64,000 bases of DNA from the NCBI GenBank assembly GCA_016196225.1, contig JACPXZ010000035.1:1-64000 (forward strand), written 5' to 3'. The stretch comes from Candidatus Peregrinibacteria bacterium (GTDB lineage Bacteria; Patescibacteriota; Gracilibacteria; Peribacterales; Peribacteraceae). Below are positions 16,851-25,232 of this stretch, one piece after another (position 1 is the stretch's first letter; every line of letters begins with the position of its first letter). The position numbers and the translations under genes were made by a program. The notes below the pieces were generated by a model. It ran no database searches and was not told the origin of the DNA. It saw only the letters and a program-made list of their open reading frames with translations.

Positions 16851-19220
16851 TTACTCCTCCTGTAAAAATTCCGGGAGCAGTAGTGGAGGTTTAAGCCCTG
16901 GTATCTTTTCTATTAATTCGAGATCCTCAAGCGCGATCTTCCCGACATACAGCCGCCGGAGATCTCCTTGTCTCTGTACAAAATCATCGATAGCCCGCCA
17001 TCCGCGGAAATACACGATCCCTTTGGTAAATGCACCCGGTTGAGAGGTGTCTGCCATACCTCGTTTGAGACCAATAGCCGTTGTCAATGATTTCGATTGG
17101 TCATACCCCAATTCTTCTTCCAAATATTTTCGGGTATCCGCAAAGGAATGACTGATCGCGTATGCTGTTGCAAGAACCATTTTGGCAGCGGTGTATCGCT
17201 TTTCATGATCCGGAGGCAGCACACGGTTCTGATTGAAAATGGCCAACCCTTCCTGCGTATCAAGATAATTGGCGCACCCCCGTCGTAAGAGATCGAACGG
17301 TTGGTGTTCCCCGTTTTCTGCCGTAAGGACATGCGTTTCGACTTCGTGAGCAATAAGTGATGCGACGTGATCATGTGAAAATACTGCCCCACGGCGAATA
17401 TAGATGTATTTTCGTCCCACGGTACAGTCCGCGACCAACGATGCGCGTACCGACACCTGCCAGTCATGCAGTCCGTATCTCTCCAGTACATCATAAAATA
17501 ACGGAACCGTATCATCGGCATACAAAAGCTCTGCAGTCTGCGGAGGTAACCGACAGGATGTTCGTGCCGCGAGAAATCCCCTCGCATATGCGATGAGAGC
17601 GGGACTCGGCGCGCCAAAGAGAGCCTGCGAACATTCCATCAAGCGCGCGGGATCTCCACGCGATAAAATTAAATGAAGACGCATGAGGAGTTCCCGCCGT
17701 TTCTTCTCAAGGAGAATCCCTAATGGAGATTCGTCCGGTGCAAGATTGTGCAAGCGTTCTTCCAGTTCATCCATATCATCCGGACCGGCACGGTACAGAA
17801 AAGAAGGATTGTATTTTGGGTCTTGTTCTATCCGGGAACGCTCCTCCCGAAGATTGAGCGGTTTTAAGTATTTAAGAATAAGAATCTTACGATCGATTTG
17901 CGAGAGCACCCGATCAACGGCACGAAGATTGTCACGGACCGTCGAATGGATGAGTGTGTGAAATACCTTTTTTGTGGGATCAATGAGAAACCCCGTAAGA
18001 TCCCGCCGCCCGACTGCCGCACGCGCAGAGGCGGATTGTACATCCCCTTCGTGCACGACGGTTTGAATTTTGCGACCACCCAAAATAAACTTTACTTTAT
18101 ATCCTTCGTCGCTCGTTTCGCCGCTCTCCACCGCCTTTTCTCGCTTGAGTTGCTTTATGAGCGATGAAGTAAATATGCTCCATTCCGCATCGGGCGTAAT
18201 GAGGCATGGCACATCGATCGTCGATCCGTCTCCGGCAATTTGCAACACTTCGCGCGGACCTAAAATGGGCCGATCTTCTTTTTCCTCCATACGCCCAATA
18301 CGTTCTCCGAAGAGTTCTTGCGCGAGACGAACCCCCTTCTCCGGCGAACTGACATGCACCCCCTCAACGCGCTCCAGTCGCGTGCGAAGCGGCGTAAGAT
18401 TCGCCACCTGTACCATCAATCCCGCACGCGCATTCACCTCAAGGAGCATCGGACCGCCGTGCGCATCAATCGTGATATCCACGGCAAGATAACCGATATT
18501 CGTGATGTACTGGATGTTGGAACACACATGCAAAATCTCCTCCCAAAAAGGAATTTTAACACCCGATGGATCGCCTCCATGAGGCAGACATTCGATGAGA
18601 TGATGATACTGCGCAGCATGGGTCGTCACTCCTTTGGCAATATCGACACCGATCCCGATTCCACCCAGATGTACATTGGCTTTCCCCTCGCTCTCGCGTG
18701 TCGGGATCCGCACCATCGCCATCACCGGCACAAGATTAAAGACAACGACACGAATGTCAGGGAGTCCCGCAGGACGAAAGGGAGCAAAACACTCGTGACT
18801 CACAAGGATCTGTTCAAAAAATGCCGTGTCGCGACGGCCCCCAAGAGAAAACTTTCCGTCAATAATATCTTCGATATGATGACGCAGATCCATGTCACTC
18901 ATGGGGGTTTTTCCCTGAATAAGGAGTTGATCGTCTTTCCGTCCTTTAAAGACAATAATCCCCTCTCCACCAAACCCCTGATTGGGCTTGAGTACGCATG
19001 CATCCGGAAGAGTCGAAAATGCAAATTCATGCAACTGTTCACGTGACTCGATCCGCGCATAAATCTTTGCGGTGGGAACTCCCCGCGCGGCAAGGAAAGC
19101 CTTGGTCTTTAATTTGTCATCCGCAAGAGCAATGGCCTTCTTGGGATTAAAGGGTTTGATATAGAGAAGATTTCTCGCATTTAAACCAAGGACACCATGA
19201 TGTTTAAAAAATGGCCACAT
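16851..19220 (-). CDS. Fusion: RimK-related ATP-grasp ligase / degenerate retropepsin-like region / DUF1704 'QEGLA' zinc peptidase-like domain
   Basis: GLPDIRVVVFNLVPVMAMVRIPTRESEGKANVHLGGIGIGVDI and LLEVNARAGL (ATP-grasp); AAVGRRDLTGFLIDPTK (retropepsin-like); AHEVETH at 17331..17348 and QEGLA at 17242..17256. Confidence 0.85.
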   Translation of the reverse strand: MWPFFKHHGVLGLNARNLLYIKPFNPKKAIALADDKLKTKAFLAARGVPTAKIYARIESREQLHEFAFSTLPDACVLKPNQGFGGEGIIVFKGRKDDQLLIQGKTPMSDMDLRHHIEDIIDGKFSLGGRRDTAFFEQILVSHECFAPFRPAGLPDIRVVVFNLVPVMAMVRIPTRESEGKANVHLGGIGIGVDIAKGVTTHAAQYHHLIECLPHGGDPSGVKIPFWEEILHVCSNIQYITNIGYLAVDITIDAHGGPMLLEVNARAGLMVQVANLTPLRTRLERVEGVHVSSPEKGVRLAQELFGERIGRMEEKEDRPILGPREVLQIAGDGSTIDVPCLITPDAEWSIFTSSLIKQLKREKAVESGETSDEGYKVKFILGGRKIQTVVHEGDVQSASARAAVGRRDLTGFLIDPTKKVFHTLIHSTVRDNLRAVDRVLSQIDRKILILKYLKPLNLREERSRIEQDPKYNPSFLYRAGPDDMDELEERLHNLAPDESPLGILLEKKRRELLMRLHLILSRGDPARLMECSQALFGAPSPALIAYARGFLAARTSCRLPPQTAELLYADDTVPLFYDVLERYGLHDWQVSVRASLVADCTVGRKYIYIRRGAVFSHDHVASLIAHEVETHVLTAENGEHQPFDLLRRGCANYLDTQEGLAIFNQNRVLPPDHEKRYTAAKMVLATAYAISHSFADTRKYLEEELGYDQSKSLTTAIGLKRGMADTSQPGAFTKGIVYFRGWRAIDDFVQRQGDLRRLYVGKIALEDLELIEKIPGLKPPLLLPEFLQEE

Positions 19221-20753
19221 TTATTCTTCCTGTAGATGCTTAAATACTTCGCGGAACCGGAAGTACTCAACAAGCCGCAATCCCGTCCACTGACCCAAGA
19301 ATATATTCACAACAAAAGTAAGAAGGATGAGTTCGGGATACCCAAGGATCAACGATTGGAACGCCGACCACTGTACGATCCATACGCAGAGAAGCGCGGC
19401 AAGAATGGTTTCGCCGATGCCCACGACGGCAGACCACCAGCCTTCCTCTGTTTTGAGATTGAGAAAACTTTCCGCAAGTGTAGACATAATAAGAAGAATA
19501 AAAATGGCATCTCGGGGGAGAGTTACCCCAAGTACCGCACCCAGAGCAAGAAGGAGGAGAAGCGTCACGCTGACCACACTCAAAATAATCGCGACCTTCG
19601 GGATGTAGAGCAACCTCCACCGGCGCATGAAAGACCGTGTCGCATACCCCGTAACAATAATGAGGAGAAGAAACACCATTCCGATCAACGGACCAAGAGC
19701 AAGAAAACTCAATGCGACAATGGACGGCGTATACAAGCCAAACGTTGTGATCCCGATGACCTGCTTGAGGAAAGTAAGAATCATCGCAATCACCGGGAGC
19801 ATGAGAAGAAAAATAATGGTTTGTGATGAAACTCCATGTGTCAGCATAACATTGACCAGCGATGTTAAGAGATTCCATGGTCTAAGTCGCACCGTGGACT
19901 CATCAATGACCAATGTATCAATGTCGCGTGCCTCGATATCCTGCAAAAATCCGGTCACATTGGGGGCAAGGAGAAGCGGATTGAGCGCCTCTTTTCGGGT
20001 AACAATGATCTGCCGAGGTTTGAGCACCGAGAATGGCCCACGAGAGGTTCGTGCAAGAGTTTGCAAACCACGATTGGTAATCAGAACAATGGATTGCTTG
20101 GCCAGCGCTCCTTGCAGTTCCTGATTCCCTTTCACCGTTCGCATCACGGCCTGCAAGCCTGCAATACCGTCGGTCCAAAGCACCAGCACTTCCGCACCAA
20201 CCAGTGCATCACCCTGCTCGGATAATTGGGTGACAATCGCTTCTTCTTGTCCCAATGGCGCAGAAACCGGCAATTGCAATACCCGGAGAAATACTCCCGC
20301 CTCCTGAGCGCTTCGTTGATGGAGACCCAGTTTTTCCGCAGGAACGGAGGCATCGGCAATGAGAACAATTTTACGATTATAGGCGATCACCGCATGAATC
20401 GCCTCCGATGTGTACTCCTCTCCCTCACGAATAAGAGTCATACGAAGACGAAAAATCAGGACACCGGCCTTCTCAGGCGTATATACCGCTTCCACGGTCC
20501 GGCTGATCGGTGTGCGGTCCTGCCCCACGTACCACCGGTACTCGGTGTTCTCTCCTTCGATTCGACTCGCCGACGCATCGAGCACCAGCGTTCGGCCAAC
20601 GGCAATATCTGTCGGGCCAGTGACGACGGCTTTTAAGGGGCCACTCGAATCATCAGTGCTGGACACGCCTTCAGGAATCCCCGGAATACTCTGTGCAAGT
20701 GCTGTACTGGTCCAAAAAAAACAAAGGAGAATTGCTTTTAGCATCCGTATCAT
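19221..20753 (-). CDS. Secreted Ig/PKD-like domain plus 7TM membrane protein (7TM_transglut-like)
   Basis: Signal peptide; VTGPTDIAVGRTLVLDASASRIEGENTEYRW (PKD-like); ITTFGLYTPSIVALSFLALGPLIGMVFLLLIIVTGYATRSFMRRWRLLYIPKVAIIL resembles the 7TM unit normally fused to inactive transglutaminases. Confidence 0.7.
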   Translation of the reverse strand: MIRMLKAILLCFFWTSTALAQSIPGIPEGVSSTDDSSGPLKAVVTGPTDIAVGRTLVLDASASRIEGENTEYRWYVGQDRTPISRTVEAVYTPEKAGVLIFRLRMTLIREGEEYTSEAIHAVIAYNRKIVLIADASVPAEKLGLHQRSAQEAGVFLRVLQLPVSAPLGQEEAIVTQLSEQGDALVGAEVLVLWTDGIAGLQAVMRTVKGNQELQGALAKQSIVLITNRGLQTLARTSRGPFSVLKPRQIIVTRKEALNPLLLAPNVTGFLQDIEARDIDTLVIDESTVRLRPWNLLTSLVNVMLTHGVSSQTIIFLLMLPVIAMILTFLKQVIGITTFGLYTPSIVALSFLALGPLIGMVFLLLIIVTGYATRSFMRRWRLLYIPKVAIILSVVSVTLLLLLALGAVLGVTLPRDAIFILLIMSTLAESFLNLKTEEGWWSAVVGIGETILAALLCVWIVQWSAFQSLILGYPELILLTFVVNIFLGQWTGLRLVEYFRFREVFKHLQEE

Positions 20754-20754
20754 T

Positions 20755-21072
20755 CTAGCGTAATCCTTTATGCTTTTCCTTATATTTCTCCAATTGCGGT
20801 TCGAGCTTCTCAATACACCGATCCACCGCCTCTATGACTGTATTCTGGCGTGATTCGGCGCAGAGGAAGGTATGAGGAAGGGAAATCGTCATGAGCATCT
20901 TGATGCTGTCTTTCTTTTTTACCGTATCGCGATGTTCTGCCTCAATGCGGATCCATGAGTCCTCACTTTTAATCCTCTTGCAGAGAGTGGCCAACTTGCT
21001 GATCTTTCGCATGAGGATAGTCCGTTCACGGTCAGTGTAGGTAAGGCCTTTTTCGAAATGTTGGATATTCAT
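20755..21072 (-). CDS. hpf: Short ribosome hibernation promoting factor / S30EA-like protein
   Basis: MNIQHFEKGLTYTDRERTILMRKISKL... with a typical beta-alpha pattern and length. Confidence 0.7.
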   Translation of the reverse strand: MNIQHFEKGLTYTDRERTILMRKISKLATLCKRIKSEDSWIRIEAEHRDTVKKKDSIKMLMTISLPHTFLCAESRQNTVIEAVDRCIEKLEPQLEKYKEKHKGLR

Positions 21073-21138: not shown

Positions 21139-22230
21139 ATGCCTACCCCTCCGGAATCGGCTCCGACTACGCCGTCCTTGACCCCCCAGGAGCAACTGGA
21201 GAGCTTGCGAACGGAAGTTCAAAATGCCCGTAATGCTCCACCGATCACGCCCGATCGAAGAGCGGCCATGCAGCACAGCCTTAATACTCTCCGGACGGAT
21301 GCATCGCTTGATCAAACAGAACTTGAACGATTGGACCAGGAAATACAATCACTCCCAAATCCGCCCCCCGCACCCGAACCCTCTATCGAAGAAGCACTCA
21401 CCGCCGCCGGTATGCCTCTCGATACGACTCAACGGGAACAAATACGGCAGGCAACGGGGATGTTCGAAAAACTGAAAAAGGGAATATTCCTATTGATCGG
21501 GAGGATTCCATTTTTACGAAAATGGGCCCAGACACAACTTAAAGAAATGGGTATGGAAGAATACGCGAATGAGCTCCGGAGTCCCGAGGAGAAGAAAAAG
21601 GCAGAAGATGAGAAGAGAAAAACGGAAGAGGATCAACGGAAACAAGAAGCCGATAGACGAAGACAATTACCGGAAAATATCGAAAACCTCGACGCACAGC
21701 GAAAGAAAGCATACGCATTTGCTCTTGTAAAAGCATTCAATGATGCCGCTGGTTCGGAAATCGTACCTATCGCACAAAATGAAAATGAGCATAACCTCGA
21801 CTATGCACGACGTATCGGTACTGCTCTTGCCGAAGCACTCAAGACAGAACAGTTTCAAGATTCACTGGCATTAGAACTGGACCCCCATCTAGAGGCAACA
21901 GACACAACATCCTCGGGTGCATTGGGTGCGATATTTTCAGTTGGCATAGCCGATTATAACATTCATGATCAACCGGCCGCAGCAGGAGTGAAGGAATTTG
22001 GCCATAACCTAAAAAATGATCCTAAAAAGGCTTTTGACGACTTCATGAAGATTGATAGCAGCCTCCTCGATAAAAAATCGGGAGACGCCGTAGATAAAAT
22101 TCAAGCCTCATTACTTGCGGCTGAGAGAATGATGTCAAGAGATCTTCGGCAGAGTCCTCCATCATCCACAAATCAACAACCAAATAGACCAGCTGCTCCC
22201 CCCACACCACCCACTCCTCCAGTCACATGA
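21139..22230 (+). CDS. Uncharacterised Pro-rich / coiled-coil protein
   Basis: Long ORF; charged coiled-coil SPEEKKKAEDEKRKTEEDQRKQEADRRRQ; Pro-rich termini; ATGA overlap with the next gene. Confidence 0.7.
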   Translation: MPTPPESAPTTPSLTPQEQLESLRTEVQNARNAPPITPDRRAAMQHSLNTLRTDASLDQTELERLDQEIQSLPNPPPAPEPSIEEALTAAGMPLDTTQREQIRQATGMFEKLKKGIFLLIGRIPFLRKWAQTQLKEMGMEEYANELRSPEEKKKAEDEKRKTEEDQRKQEADRRRQLPENIENLDAQRKKAYAFALVKAFNDAAGSEIVPIAQNENEHNLDYARRIGTALAEALKTEQFQDSLALELDPHLEATDTTSSGALGAIFSVGIADYNIHDQPAAAGVKEFGHNLKNDPKKAFDDFMKIDSSLLDKKSGDAVDKIQASLLAAERMMSRDLRQSPPSSTNQQPNRPAAPPTPPTPPVT

Positions 22231-25200
22231 TCCCTCCCGCTCCCGCACCGGTGGAATCGCTCTACCAAAGAGCACCGAGTCTTACACCGGAAGTACTACG
22301 AGAAGAAATTCAGCGTCTCACAGCCGATCAACTCGATCAGCTCGTCCTCGAAATGGACAAGGCACGAAATATTCCCGGTATCTTTCGTAATGCTCTTGTT
22401 CGCAATGCCATCGACGAACGCATTGCCCTTGCTGACGCCACACGCGAACAGTGGAAAGAGCTCCAACGCCTCATTGAGACTGGACTCCAACCCGTCCCCC
22501 TCACTCCCCCTCCCGTCCCTCTCCCTTTTCGTTCCGCCCCGCCCTCCTTCCCCCCACCACAATTCGCACCGCCCTCAAGCCGGAGGATTACCGGTGAAAC
22601 CGGACTAAAGGAATGGACTGGAGATCATAAAGGAATGATTGTCGCCACTGCGGGACTGGCAATCCTCGGATTCTTTGCGATCCGCTACTGGGCGCAAAAG
22701 CGGGCGGAGCGGGCAACGGAAGCACAGGAAGAAGCAGCCGCCATTGCAGAAGGACGAGAACCGCCAAAACCAAAAAGCTGGTTGTGGAAGCTCCTCATCC
22801 CCAGTATCGCTGTCGGTGGAGGCGCAATCGCAATCGAAGCATATAAAAATCGAAAAAAGATCGCCGAGAAGGCAAAGGAAGCAAAACAAAAAGTGGATGC
22901 ATCCGCCGAAGCACAGGAAGGGATTGAGAACGCGCGATATGGTCTTGTCAGCACCGGCCTCCTCCTCCTCGATCGCGATCTCATGCCGGAGTCCACACGT
23001 ATCTCAGATGCGCAGCGCCGCCATATCCTCACCGGATTCCTCGAGGATCAGCGGGTACAGAATGTTCCGGTGAGCCAGGTCTTGAGTATTGATAGTGAAA
23101 GTGATGTAGCCAACGTATTTGGAGATGTCATCGCCAACCGCCCGGCGGATGACCGGCGCGTCCTCTTTTTCCTCGCGCAGTCTTGCAAAAAGCATCAGGA
23201 ATACGTCACCGACAAAGCCCGTCGACTGGGACTCTCGGATGAAGAGATCATGCAAATGCCCTTGATCGAATACGTTGACCAGCTTGCCGAGGTCTCATCC
23301 ACATTCGGACAACTCACCGACGATATCGCCACCAAACTTGCCAACAAAGATATCGATATCGGCAATATCGACTGGAAAAACATCTTCAGCGGCCCGCAAT
23401 TTATTCATAATCTCAAGACCGATCGGGTCTTTATGCGACGGATCATCGAGCATTACCCGGAGCTCCAGACCAAAGAAAACGACTTCATGTTGTTTTGCGC
23501 CGCAAATGGAAGTAAGACCATGCACAATCTCCCCGAGCAACTGCGACAAAATATCCCCGACGAAAAAAAACAGGAATGGCAGATGTTCCAGGGGATCCTC
23601 GAGAGGATGCACCAATACATACAAGATCAAACCGAATATCTTATGCAATACACGCATGGAGAAGAACGCTTCGCCGGTCCTCTCAAAAACTATTTGCAAA
23701 ATTATCTTACGGTACTCGATACCGTCCAGCTCTACTACTACATGCAACAGATGGTGGGCCGGGATGGGAACTTCCTCGCACTCAAAGAGAGCCCGCATTT
23801 CACGTCATTCCTCCTCCAAACCAAAATCATCAGTATGGTCAAAAAGGCGGACGTAGGTCAAGGGAAACGGATGTTCGTCAACCTCGCGGCACGCGGTACC
23901 GGGGCGGCCCTCGGGGCGGCAACCAATATCGAGCTCCCCGAAAAGGCCAAAGAGCTCCTTCAAAGTGCGGCCGGAACCATCACGGACGCCGCACACAAAA
24001 TGCTTACCGAAGCCGTTGATAAAGTAAAAATCATGTATCAGGAAACCGTGCGAACCGCGCCCGTAGCAGCCGGAACGGCATCGGCTGTCGGTTTCTATCT
24101 CCTCCAAACAAAATTAAAAAACGTCATCGATTCCTACGATGCCAAGTGGATTGCGCGATCAGAGCCGGCCAAAATAGCACGACGATTCGGTATATCCCTA
24201 GAGGGCGCGGACAGAATACAGAGAACGGTACCCGGTCGCCTCATCGGAAAAACCGGGTTACAAAACTACACATCGCCGGGATACGAGACAAACATCATGC
24301 ACGGGATACTCAAAGACATTGAGAAGGAACAGGACATCGCGAATGTGCTCCTTACAAAGGGGGGCATCGGCAAACACTTTGACGACCTCCAATCACAACT
24401 GCGCACGCATGGCGGTACGTTGGAGGGTCAACTCAAAGGCGCCACCAACCGCGCGCAGACAAAGCAGATTATGAGGACATTCAATGCGACAAACCAAAAG
24501 ATCATCGATGATACACTCGACAAAATTGCTCCGCAGATTTCTCAAAAAGGCGCGACGACATTTGCTGAACTTGCGGAACACGAACCCCGTCTCGCCGAAG
24601 CAATCGGGCGCGGATTGAAGCAAAAAAATTTCGTTACCGCGTTCGGTCATAAGGTCAATATCTTTAAAAGAAATATCGGAACAGCCATGGAAGGAACACG
24701 ATCCCGAACAAAAATGTTCGCTCCGCTCCTTGTGCTCCGGGCACTGACCTCGGAAGAAAAAATCCCTCTCGCCAACCTTGCCGGTTCCACCGCCATTCAA
24801 CTCACTCCTATTGCCGGTACCCTCTATGATCTCGATGCACTCATTGCCGGACGAGATCGCATCACCGGAGAAGAAATCTCCCGGTGGCAATCCGCAGGAT
24901 TCGTTGCCATCGGTGCCGCAACCGATACCATCACCGTCCTTGGTGCGATCTTCGGATTCGGAGCGGGTGGAGGTATCGGAGTTGTCGCTCGCACCGCGGC
25001 TTTTGGAACCCGCGCCGGAGTCAAAGCGGTCAAGGCGACAAAAACCGCCGTCAAGGCATCGGAGGCCATGGCCAAAGCCACCCGCGTCGCCTTAAAGGCG
25101 GAAAAAATCGCGACAGTTGCCCGATTTGCCCGCGTTGGAGGATACACATTCACGATTGGAAATATCAGTTATGGTTTGTTCTCATCTGACGGACAAACAC

Positions 25201-25232
25201 CACCGGAGGACTCGGAGAATGTCATCGCATAA
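22227..25232 (+). CDS. Uncharacterised 1001-aa membrane protein with a pre-toxin-TG-like motif near the C-terminus
   Basis: Long ORF; Pro-rich N-terminus; TM segments; IAGTLYDLDALIAGRDRITGEEISRWQSAG at about 24805..24897. Confidence 0.75.
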   Translation: MIPPAPAPVESLYQRAPSLTPEVLREEIQRLTADQLDQLVLEMDKARNIPGIFRNALVRNAIDERIALADATREQWKELQRLIETGLQPVPLTPPPVPLPFRSAPPSFPPPQFAPPSSRRITGETGLKEWTGDHKGMIVATAGLAILGFFAIRYWAQKRAERATEAQEEAAAIAEGREPPKPKSWLWKLLIPSIAVGGGAIAIEAYKNRKKIAEKAKEAKQKVDASAEAQEGIENARYGLVSTGLLLLDRDLMPESTRISDAQRRHILTGFLEDQRVQNVPVSQVLSIDSESDVANVFGDVIANRPADDRRVLFFLAQSCKKHQEYVTDKARRLGLSDEEIMQMPLIEYVDQLAEVSSTFGQLTDDIATKLANKDIDIGNIDWKNIFSGPQFIHNLKTDRVFMRRIIEHYPELQTKENDFMLFCAANGSKTMHNLPEQLRQNIPDEKKQEWQMFQGILERMHQYIQDQTEYLMQYTHGEERFAGPLKNYLQNYLTVLDTVQLYYYMQQMVGRDGNFLALKESPHFTSFLLQTKIISMVKKADVGQGKRMFVNLAARGTGAALGAATNIELPEKAKELLQSAAGTITDAAHKMLTEAVDKVKIMYQETVRTAPVAAGTASAVGFYLLQTKLKNVIDSYDAKWIARSEPAKIARRFGISLEGADRIQRTVPGRLIGKTGLQNYTSPGYETNIMHGILKDIEKEQDIANVLLTKGGIGKHFDDLQSQLRTHGGTLEGQLKGATNRAQTKQIMRTFNATNQKIIDDTLDKIAPQISQKGATTFAELAEHEPRLAEAIGRGLKQKNFVTAFGHKVNIFKRNIGTAMEGTRSRTKMFAPLLVLRALTSEEKIPLANLAGSTAIQLTPIAGTLYDLDALIAGRDRITGEEISRWQSAGFVAIGAATDTITVLGAIFGFGAGGGIGVVARTAAFGTRAGVKAVKATKTAVKASEAMAKATRVALKAEKIATVARFARVGGYTFTIGNISYGLFSSDGQTPPEDSENVIA

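Follow-up and report, generated by a model that had tools for sequence, protein, structure and literature searches.

A bacterial RloC-like ligase fused to a degenerate retropepsin domain and a MATCAP metallopeptidase, next to an RloB-type protein with a Glu-Glu tail

The bacterial rlo and rim systems are known to pair a ligase with a protease that takes off the added residues. In Pseudomonas aeruginosa, the published account (PMC12239564) describes RloA as a secreted retropepsin that cuts runs of 8-10 glutamates, RloB as an inactive-transglutaminase membrane protein, and RloC as an ATP-grasp protein; it reports RloB matches as 96% proteobacterial. According to the same account, losing the three RloA proteases is compensated when either rloB or rloC is deleted, as expected if a writer opposes an eraser. 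In the rim system, RimB removes glutamates from RpsF, requires the aspartate of its DTG motif, and also stimulates the glutamate ligase RimK, to which it is fused in the RimBK hybrid (PMC11957791). Human MATCAP1/2 (TMCP1/2; PDB 7z5g) are zinc enzymes that act on the acidic C-terminal tails of tubulin (PMC10499314, PMC13269789), as deglutamylases that shorten post-translational glutamate chains as well as detyrosinases (PMC10499314), and they are separate from the ligases. MATCAP-family genes also stand beside ATP-grasp ligases in bacteria, as in rhizobial operons (for example, locus L310) that combine a QEGLA gene and a GshB-like gene with N-formylglutamate amidohydrolase. Bacterial MATCAP-family enzymes are annotated only as 'flavohemoglobin expression-modulating'.

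Here, we describe a locus in a 64,000-nucleotide stretch of a Candidatus Peregrinibacteria genome (contig JACPXZ010000035.1, hereafter the window). As in the P. aeruginosa rlo operon, an RloB-type 7TM protein, an RloC-type ATP-grasp and an RloA-type retropepsin occur together. Unlike that operon, the window encodes RloC and RloA as a single polypeptide that lacks a signal peptide, the RloA motif has been lost, and a MATCAP domain has been added. The general kind of system is thus known, and what is new is a different putative eraser, its union with the ligase in one polypeptide, and a candidate tail. The features are as follows, with the basis of each assignment in parentheses.

16851..19220 (-), three-domain fusion of RloC-like ATP-grasp, pseudo-retropepsin and MATCAP, 789 aa (frame, Pfam, NCBIfam, homologs, model)
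18303..19208 (-), ATP-grasp ligase domain, aa 5-306 (Pfam, NCBIfam, conserved residues, Foldseek)
17973..18275 (-), degenerate RimB/RloA retropepsin-like domain, aa ~316-416, ending in GRRDLTGFLIDP (homolog alignment)
18189..18197 (-), codons at the catalytic DTG position, read as T-P-D, aa 342-344 (homolog alignment)
16860..17888 (-), MATCAP (PF08014) metallopeptidase domain, aa ~445-787 (Pfam, profile, Foldseek)
17331..17348 (-), HEVETH zinc/catalytic motif, aa 625-630 (homolog alignment, MATCAP alignment)
17241..17255 (-), QEGLA motif, aa 656-660, with the putative third zinc ligand E657 (homolog alignment, MATCAP alignment)
19221..20753 (-), RloB-type membrane protein with signal helix, PKD, Rossmann-like and 7TM_transglut parts (Pfam, NCBIfam, model)
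19224..19229 (-), the two C-terminal glutamate codons of RloB (GAA GAA), beside its stop and followed by the fusion ATG (sequence)
20755..21072 (-), HPF/RaiA-type ribosome hibernation factor gene, just upstream of RloB (Pfam, NCBIfam, related loci)

The three-domain fusion and its RloB-type neighbor

The fusion is read in a single unbroken frame from ATG to TAA. The preliminary description had recognized this 789-aa frame and its three domains, and had named a frameshift or assembly error among the outcomes that would undo the proposal. All three domain calls were correct, as judged by Pfam, homolog alignment and structure matches, and an artefactual join is ruled out by the many full-length homologs: a class-wide survey found a match in 206 of 289 genomes, mostly as one full-length frame. 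Its named relatives belong to Candidatus Peribacteria and Peregrinibacteria, and a few records under other names are probably mislabelled bins. The genome of the window has one MATCAP gene and one ATPgrasp_ST gene. Among plasmid records, none had one place covering 80% of the fusion query, and MATCAP and ATP-grasp were matched in parts only. Four loci (L052, L053, L065, L068) carry the fusion split into a ligase/retropepsin frame and a MATCAP frame, by either gene fission or sequencing error.

The N-terminal domain matches PF14397 (ATPgrasp_ST) at aa 16-286 (E-value 1.6e-59, 201.9 bits against a cut-off of 31.4) and TIGR02291, a RimK-related glutamate ligase-like model (2.6e-74), the latter at 250 bits against an equivalog cut-off of 314, so that it belongs to the family and falls outside the equivalog. 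Residues K78, E261, N263 and R265, in the region of the motifs VLKPN and LLEVNAR, are nearly invariant across 42 aligned homologs, as is D248, and among solved ATP-grasp structures Foldseek places RimK (5zct/5zk6) closest. We predict a glutamate ligase of the RloC/RimK type; where glutamate and tyrosine had both been entertained as the added residue, glutamate is likely and tyrosine is not. RimK itself modifies ribosomal protein S6.

At the other end, PF08014 (MATCAP, formerly DUF1704) matches aa 467-773 (8.5e-47, 160 bits against a cut-off of 27), and TIGR02421 (QEGLA) matches at 5.2e-56, under its strict equivalog cut-off. The HExxxH and QEGLA motifs noted previously are present at the positions listed above, and H625, E626, H630 and E657 are invariant in all 42 aligned homologs. 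The family profile matches human MATCAP at 6.2e-27, aligning HEIETH with HEIGTH and QEGLA with EEGLA, and KRGxxDTSxPGxF is shared; the putative zinc site is assigned by alignment to 7z5g. The likeness to the human enzymes extends over fold, HExxxH, the EEG-type third ligand and KRGxxDTSxPGxF, and tubulin plays no part here. An AlphaFold2 model of the fusion, built with 40 homologs (mean pLDDT 88, pTM 0.51), bears out the fold assignments: Foldseek returned human MATCAP 7z5g first (1.1e-11), followed by RimK 5zct (4.5e-9) and 5zk6, RimK with RpsF.

When searched alone against Pfam, the central region of the protein in the window gave no match. Its aligned homologs match PF05618 (RimB/RloA) at 9.2e-12 and two crystal structures of the RloA type, 9g59 and 9g58, at 3.5e-6. 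Relatives of this domain retain an IDTGA motif, and the window protein has ITPDAEWS in its place, as the preliminary description had read it, with TPD at the DTG position. Homology to PF05618 is thus established through the aligned homologs, the catalytic aspartate is absent, and the domain is a pseudo-protease rather than an active member of the family. A still active retropepsin is unlikely, although D-T/S-G survives in 11 of 125 fused homologs, in none of them with the usual alanine after it. The RloA-type domain sits behind the ligase in the same chain, where RloA of the rlo operon is secreted. RimB is N-terminal in RimBK, whereas the order here is ligase then retropepsin, with the motif lost and a metallopeptidase present.

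The gene directly upstream of the fusion encodes an RloB-type membrane protein, and its end immediately precedes the fusion ATG. Most homologs likewise have RloB close upstream. The frame extends to a TTG at 20813, and the probable start is ATG 20753 or 20744. Its C-terminal part matches 7TM_transglut (PF14402, 1.2e-26) and is the only part to match NF052267; the N-terminal part is formed by PKD and Rossmann-like domains. In comparison with P. aeruginosa RloB, no inactive transglutaminase domain is recognized, and the protein ends in -EE. In a model of RloB (pLDDT 85), a signal helix is followed by the PKD and Rossmann-like domains and then by a membrane part made of helices, with the last residues on the final helix; Foldseek matched the PKD part, gave a weak sialyltransferase match, and returned nothing else. 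If the long second hydrophobic stretch is counted as two, hydropathy and the positive-inside rule would fit seven membrane passes and a cytosolic C-terminus. Since this gene lies directly upstream, we conclude that the fusion belongs to a rewired rlo (RloA-RloB-RloC) system, an assignment that the preliminary description did not contain. Within the phylum, 87 of 287 genomes encode the RloB membrane domain.

The surroundings of the two genes vary. The gene order HPF/RaiA-RloB recurs in the home family, at 15 loci besides the window, and hints at a stress-related operon. In some Peribacteria (L003, L006, L007, L009, L011, L013, L149), telomere-like GGGTTAGGGTTAGGG or GGGCTAGGGCTAGG repeats lie between RloB and the fusion. 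In the window, 21139-25232 (+) holds two long frames, of 363 and 1001 aa, that have no equivalent at the related loci compared, and all Pfam matches of the 363-aa frame are insignificant.

Retropepsin motif, MATCAP and RloB tail across loci

We compared 200 non-redundant loci, gathered by homology searches rather than at random, so the proportions below describe this sample. The common arrangement in other Patescibacteria lacks MATCAP and has a two-domain ATP-grasp/retropepsin protein after RloB. Of the loci without MATCAP, 42 of 43 retain an intact retropepsin motif, as do 14 of 143 with MATCAP fused (11/125, all of them the alanine-lacking cases above) or adjacent (3/18); in adjacent-MATCAP loci that have lost it, the change is mostly D to N.

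The C-terminus of RloB follows a similar division. It is Glu-Glu in 105 of 110 cases with a fused MATCAP and 13 of 18 with an adjacent one (together 118/128), against 1 of 45 without MATCAP and 9 of 747 other genes of the same loci. Glutamate occupies position -1 in 95% and -2 in 94%, and at -3 no residue exceeds 28%; over the final eight residues, net charge averages -1.7 where MATCAP is present and +1.4 where it is absent. RloB of Legionella and Aeromonas has no terminal glutamate. Being predicted to be cytosolic, C-terminal and acidic, and following MATCAP in its occurrence, the tail of RloB is the strongest candidate substrate. In retropepsin-type systems, the RloB tails are non-acidic and therefore cannot be acceptors in the same form. 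Ribosomal protein S6 was considered as an alternative co-varying tail and rejected; the S6 tails examined show no -EE pattern with MATCAP. The end of the fusion itself was also rejected, as the window fusion ends LQEE and its homologs do not.

On a tree of the ATP-grasp domain, MATCAP, motif loss and the -EE end of RloB are combined in three separate places: the large home clade, another clade in which MATCAP is a gene of its own, and the group L142/L144/L242. There are exceptions. Three loci (L108, L109, L111) have a separate adjacent MATCAP, an intact DTGA and RloB without EE, so the presence of MATCAP is not enough to bring the change about, and two others (L247, L040) have lost DTG yet have RloB without EE. 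A raw Fisher test of motif loss against -EE gives p = 1.4e-22 with relatives counted as independent. MATCAP changed at least seven times on the tree, but it was gained too rarely for a test that corrects for the tree to reach significance: an independent-pairs test with four well-supported contrasts gave about 2 of 4 for DTG loss and 1.3 for EE, with almost none in the opposite direction, a sample at which significance is unreachable.

A proposed eraser swap and its alternatives

We think it moderately probable that an eraser has been exchanged within the rlo system, with a zinc carboxypeptidase replacing the retropepsin on glutamate chains made by RloC, and with the cytosolic tail of RloB as the likely substrate. 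The domains, the loss of the motif, its association with MATCAP and the tail are read directly from the sequences; the chemistry, the substrate and the physiological output are proposed as follows. By precedent from their families, the RloC-type ATP-grasp would add glutamates to a C-terminal carboxylate, and in the ancestral patescibacterial form the fused RimB/RloA retropepsin would cut the resulting chain. In this lineage, the retropepsin would have lost its active site and MATCAP would trim the chain instead, so that the middle domain appears to be the older, displaced eraser. The dead domain may have been retained for stimulating or positioning the ligase, as RimB does RimK. The tail of RloB, whose Glu-Glu end occurs almost only with MATCAP, would be lengthened and trimmed, thereby setting RloB activity in envelope or osmotic homeostasis. 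Displacement of one eraser by another is plausible because RimB/RloA and MATCAP both act on glutamate chains. The case for the swap rests on the two terminal residues being conserved among deeply diverged sequences, on the three separate co-occurrences, and on the RloB genes encoded elsewhere.

The idea that one polypeptide both adds and removes C-terminal amino acids had been advanced in the preliminary description. This logic is strengthened by the human deglutamylases (PMC10499314), by the polyglutamate proteases RimB (PMC11957791) and RloA (PMC12239564), and by the adjoining Glu-Glu candidate tail; what changes is the amino acid, which is likely glutamate instead of tyrosine. A fuller version, in which the locus is a bacterial counterpart of the tubulin code, writing and erasing glutamate on the cytosolic tail of a membrane protein by one polypeptide, with MATCAP having displaced an HIV-protease-like domain while the tail changed to -EE, is offered tentatively and with somewhat less than even confidence.

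The same swap could be real with a different role for the tail: the Glu-Glu of RloB may serve for docking or mimic the product, recruiting or restraining MATCAP at the membrane, the substrate being, say, free poly-alpha-glutamate or a peptide exported by RloB. The tail is encoded and mostly has two or three glutamates only, RimK/RimB also make and process free poly-glutamate (PMC11957791), RloB in its model resembles a membrane protein with an outside domain and might be a transporter, and RloB of the retropepsin-type systems lacks an acidic tail. We nevertheless regard docking as less likely, as docking motifs need not lie at the very last two residues, and the conservation here is anchored at the C-terminus, as for the substrate of an exopeptidase or a C-terminal ligase. 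It is improbable that the fusion modifies no protein at all and instead makes and trims a small peptide or an amino-acid-tagged metabolite, as the GshB-like ATP-grasp/MATCAP operons of rhizobia and vibrios may do. PF14397 is a broad ligase family, a Sinorhizobium gene row consists of N-formylglutamate amidohydrolase, QEGLA and a glutathione-synthase-like gene, and low salinity strongly induces both the QEGLA and the GshB gene of Photobacterium (27- and 38-fold; PMC10308900 table), whose locus tags are neighbors. However, the ATP-grasp domain has RimK and not GshB as its nearest solved structure, RloB and the retropepsin domain are its neighbors as in rlo, and the tail of RloB follows MATCAP. 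The rhizobial operons, in turn, consist of separate genes with another ATP-grasp family, and the locus examined has no adjacent RloB or retropepsin.

We reject the explanation that the -EE end arises incidentally from a Shine-Dalgarno sequence or from base composition, with no link to the enzyme, which seems very improbable even though the codons of the window (CAG GAA GAA TAA ATG) resemble a ribosome-binding site for the fusion. EE is kept in 34 of 37 loci in which the next domain lies at least 70 nt from RloB, and, as predicted, in nine of nine RloB genes not seen beside the fusion in genomes with a typical one (seven of them clearly unlinked or on another contig or in another place, and two on recoded contigs read with TGA as sense). 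Conversely, 38 of 39 MATCAP-free RloB genes equally close to RloC lack it, and all four glutamate codon pairs are in use. One RloB, accompanying an aberrant fusion (L047, G008), ends in EEV.

The swap would give a concrete candidate substrate to the bacterial MATCAP-family enzymes and to RloC, for which the literature searched names no target. It would also be an apparent displacement of one protease class by another within the same polypeptide, with the old one decaying, and suggests that the deglutamylase chemistry MATCAP applies to tubulin also serves glutamate tails in bacteria; if so, lengthening and trimming of the RloB tail would act as a switch. The locus extends the rlo stress system, in which RloB is almost purely proteobacterial according to the published report, to many Patescibacteria with very small genomes; the carriers of the fusion are tiny, uncultured bacteria. 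In a literature search with most subscription papers outside its coverage, where an earlier mention of a related gene neighborhood is possible, we found no publication pairing Patescibacteria with these ligases, and mentions of DUF1704 or QEGLA were confined to two papers.

Through the Photobacterium and rhizobial gene pairs, MATCAP-family enzymes may be tied to hypo-osmotic stress, as rlo is. Other arrangements of the same parts also occur. In two patescibacterial loci (L127, 1908-4673; L132, 3218-5782), the ATP-grasp and an intact retropepsin are followed by at least ~400 additional residues, in proteins of 854-921 aa. On a plasmid of the haloarchaeon Halobacterium sp. DL1 (L075, 4164-5918), an unannotated frame joins the 7TM region of RloB directly to the RloC ATP-grasp.
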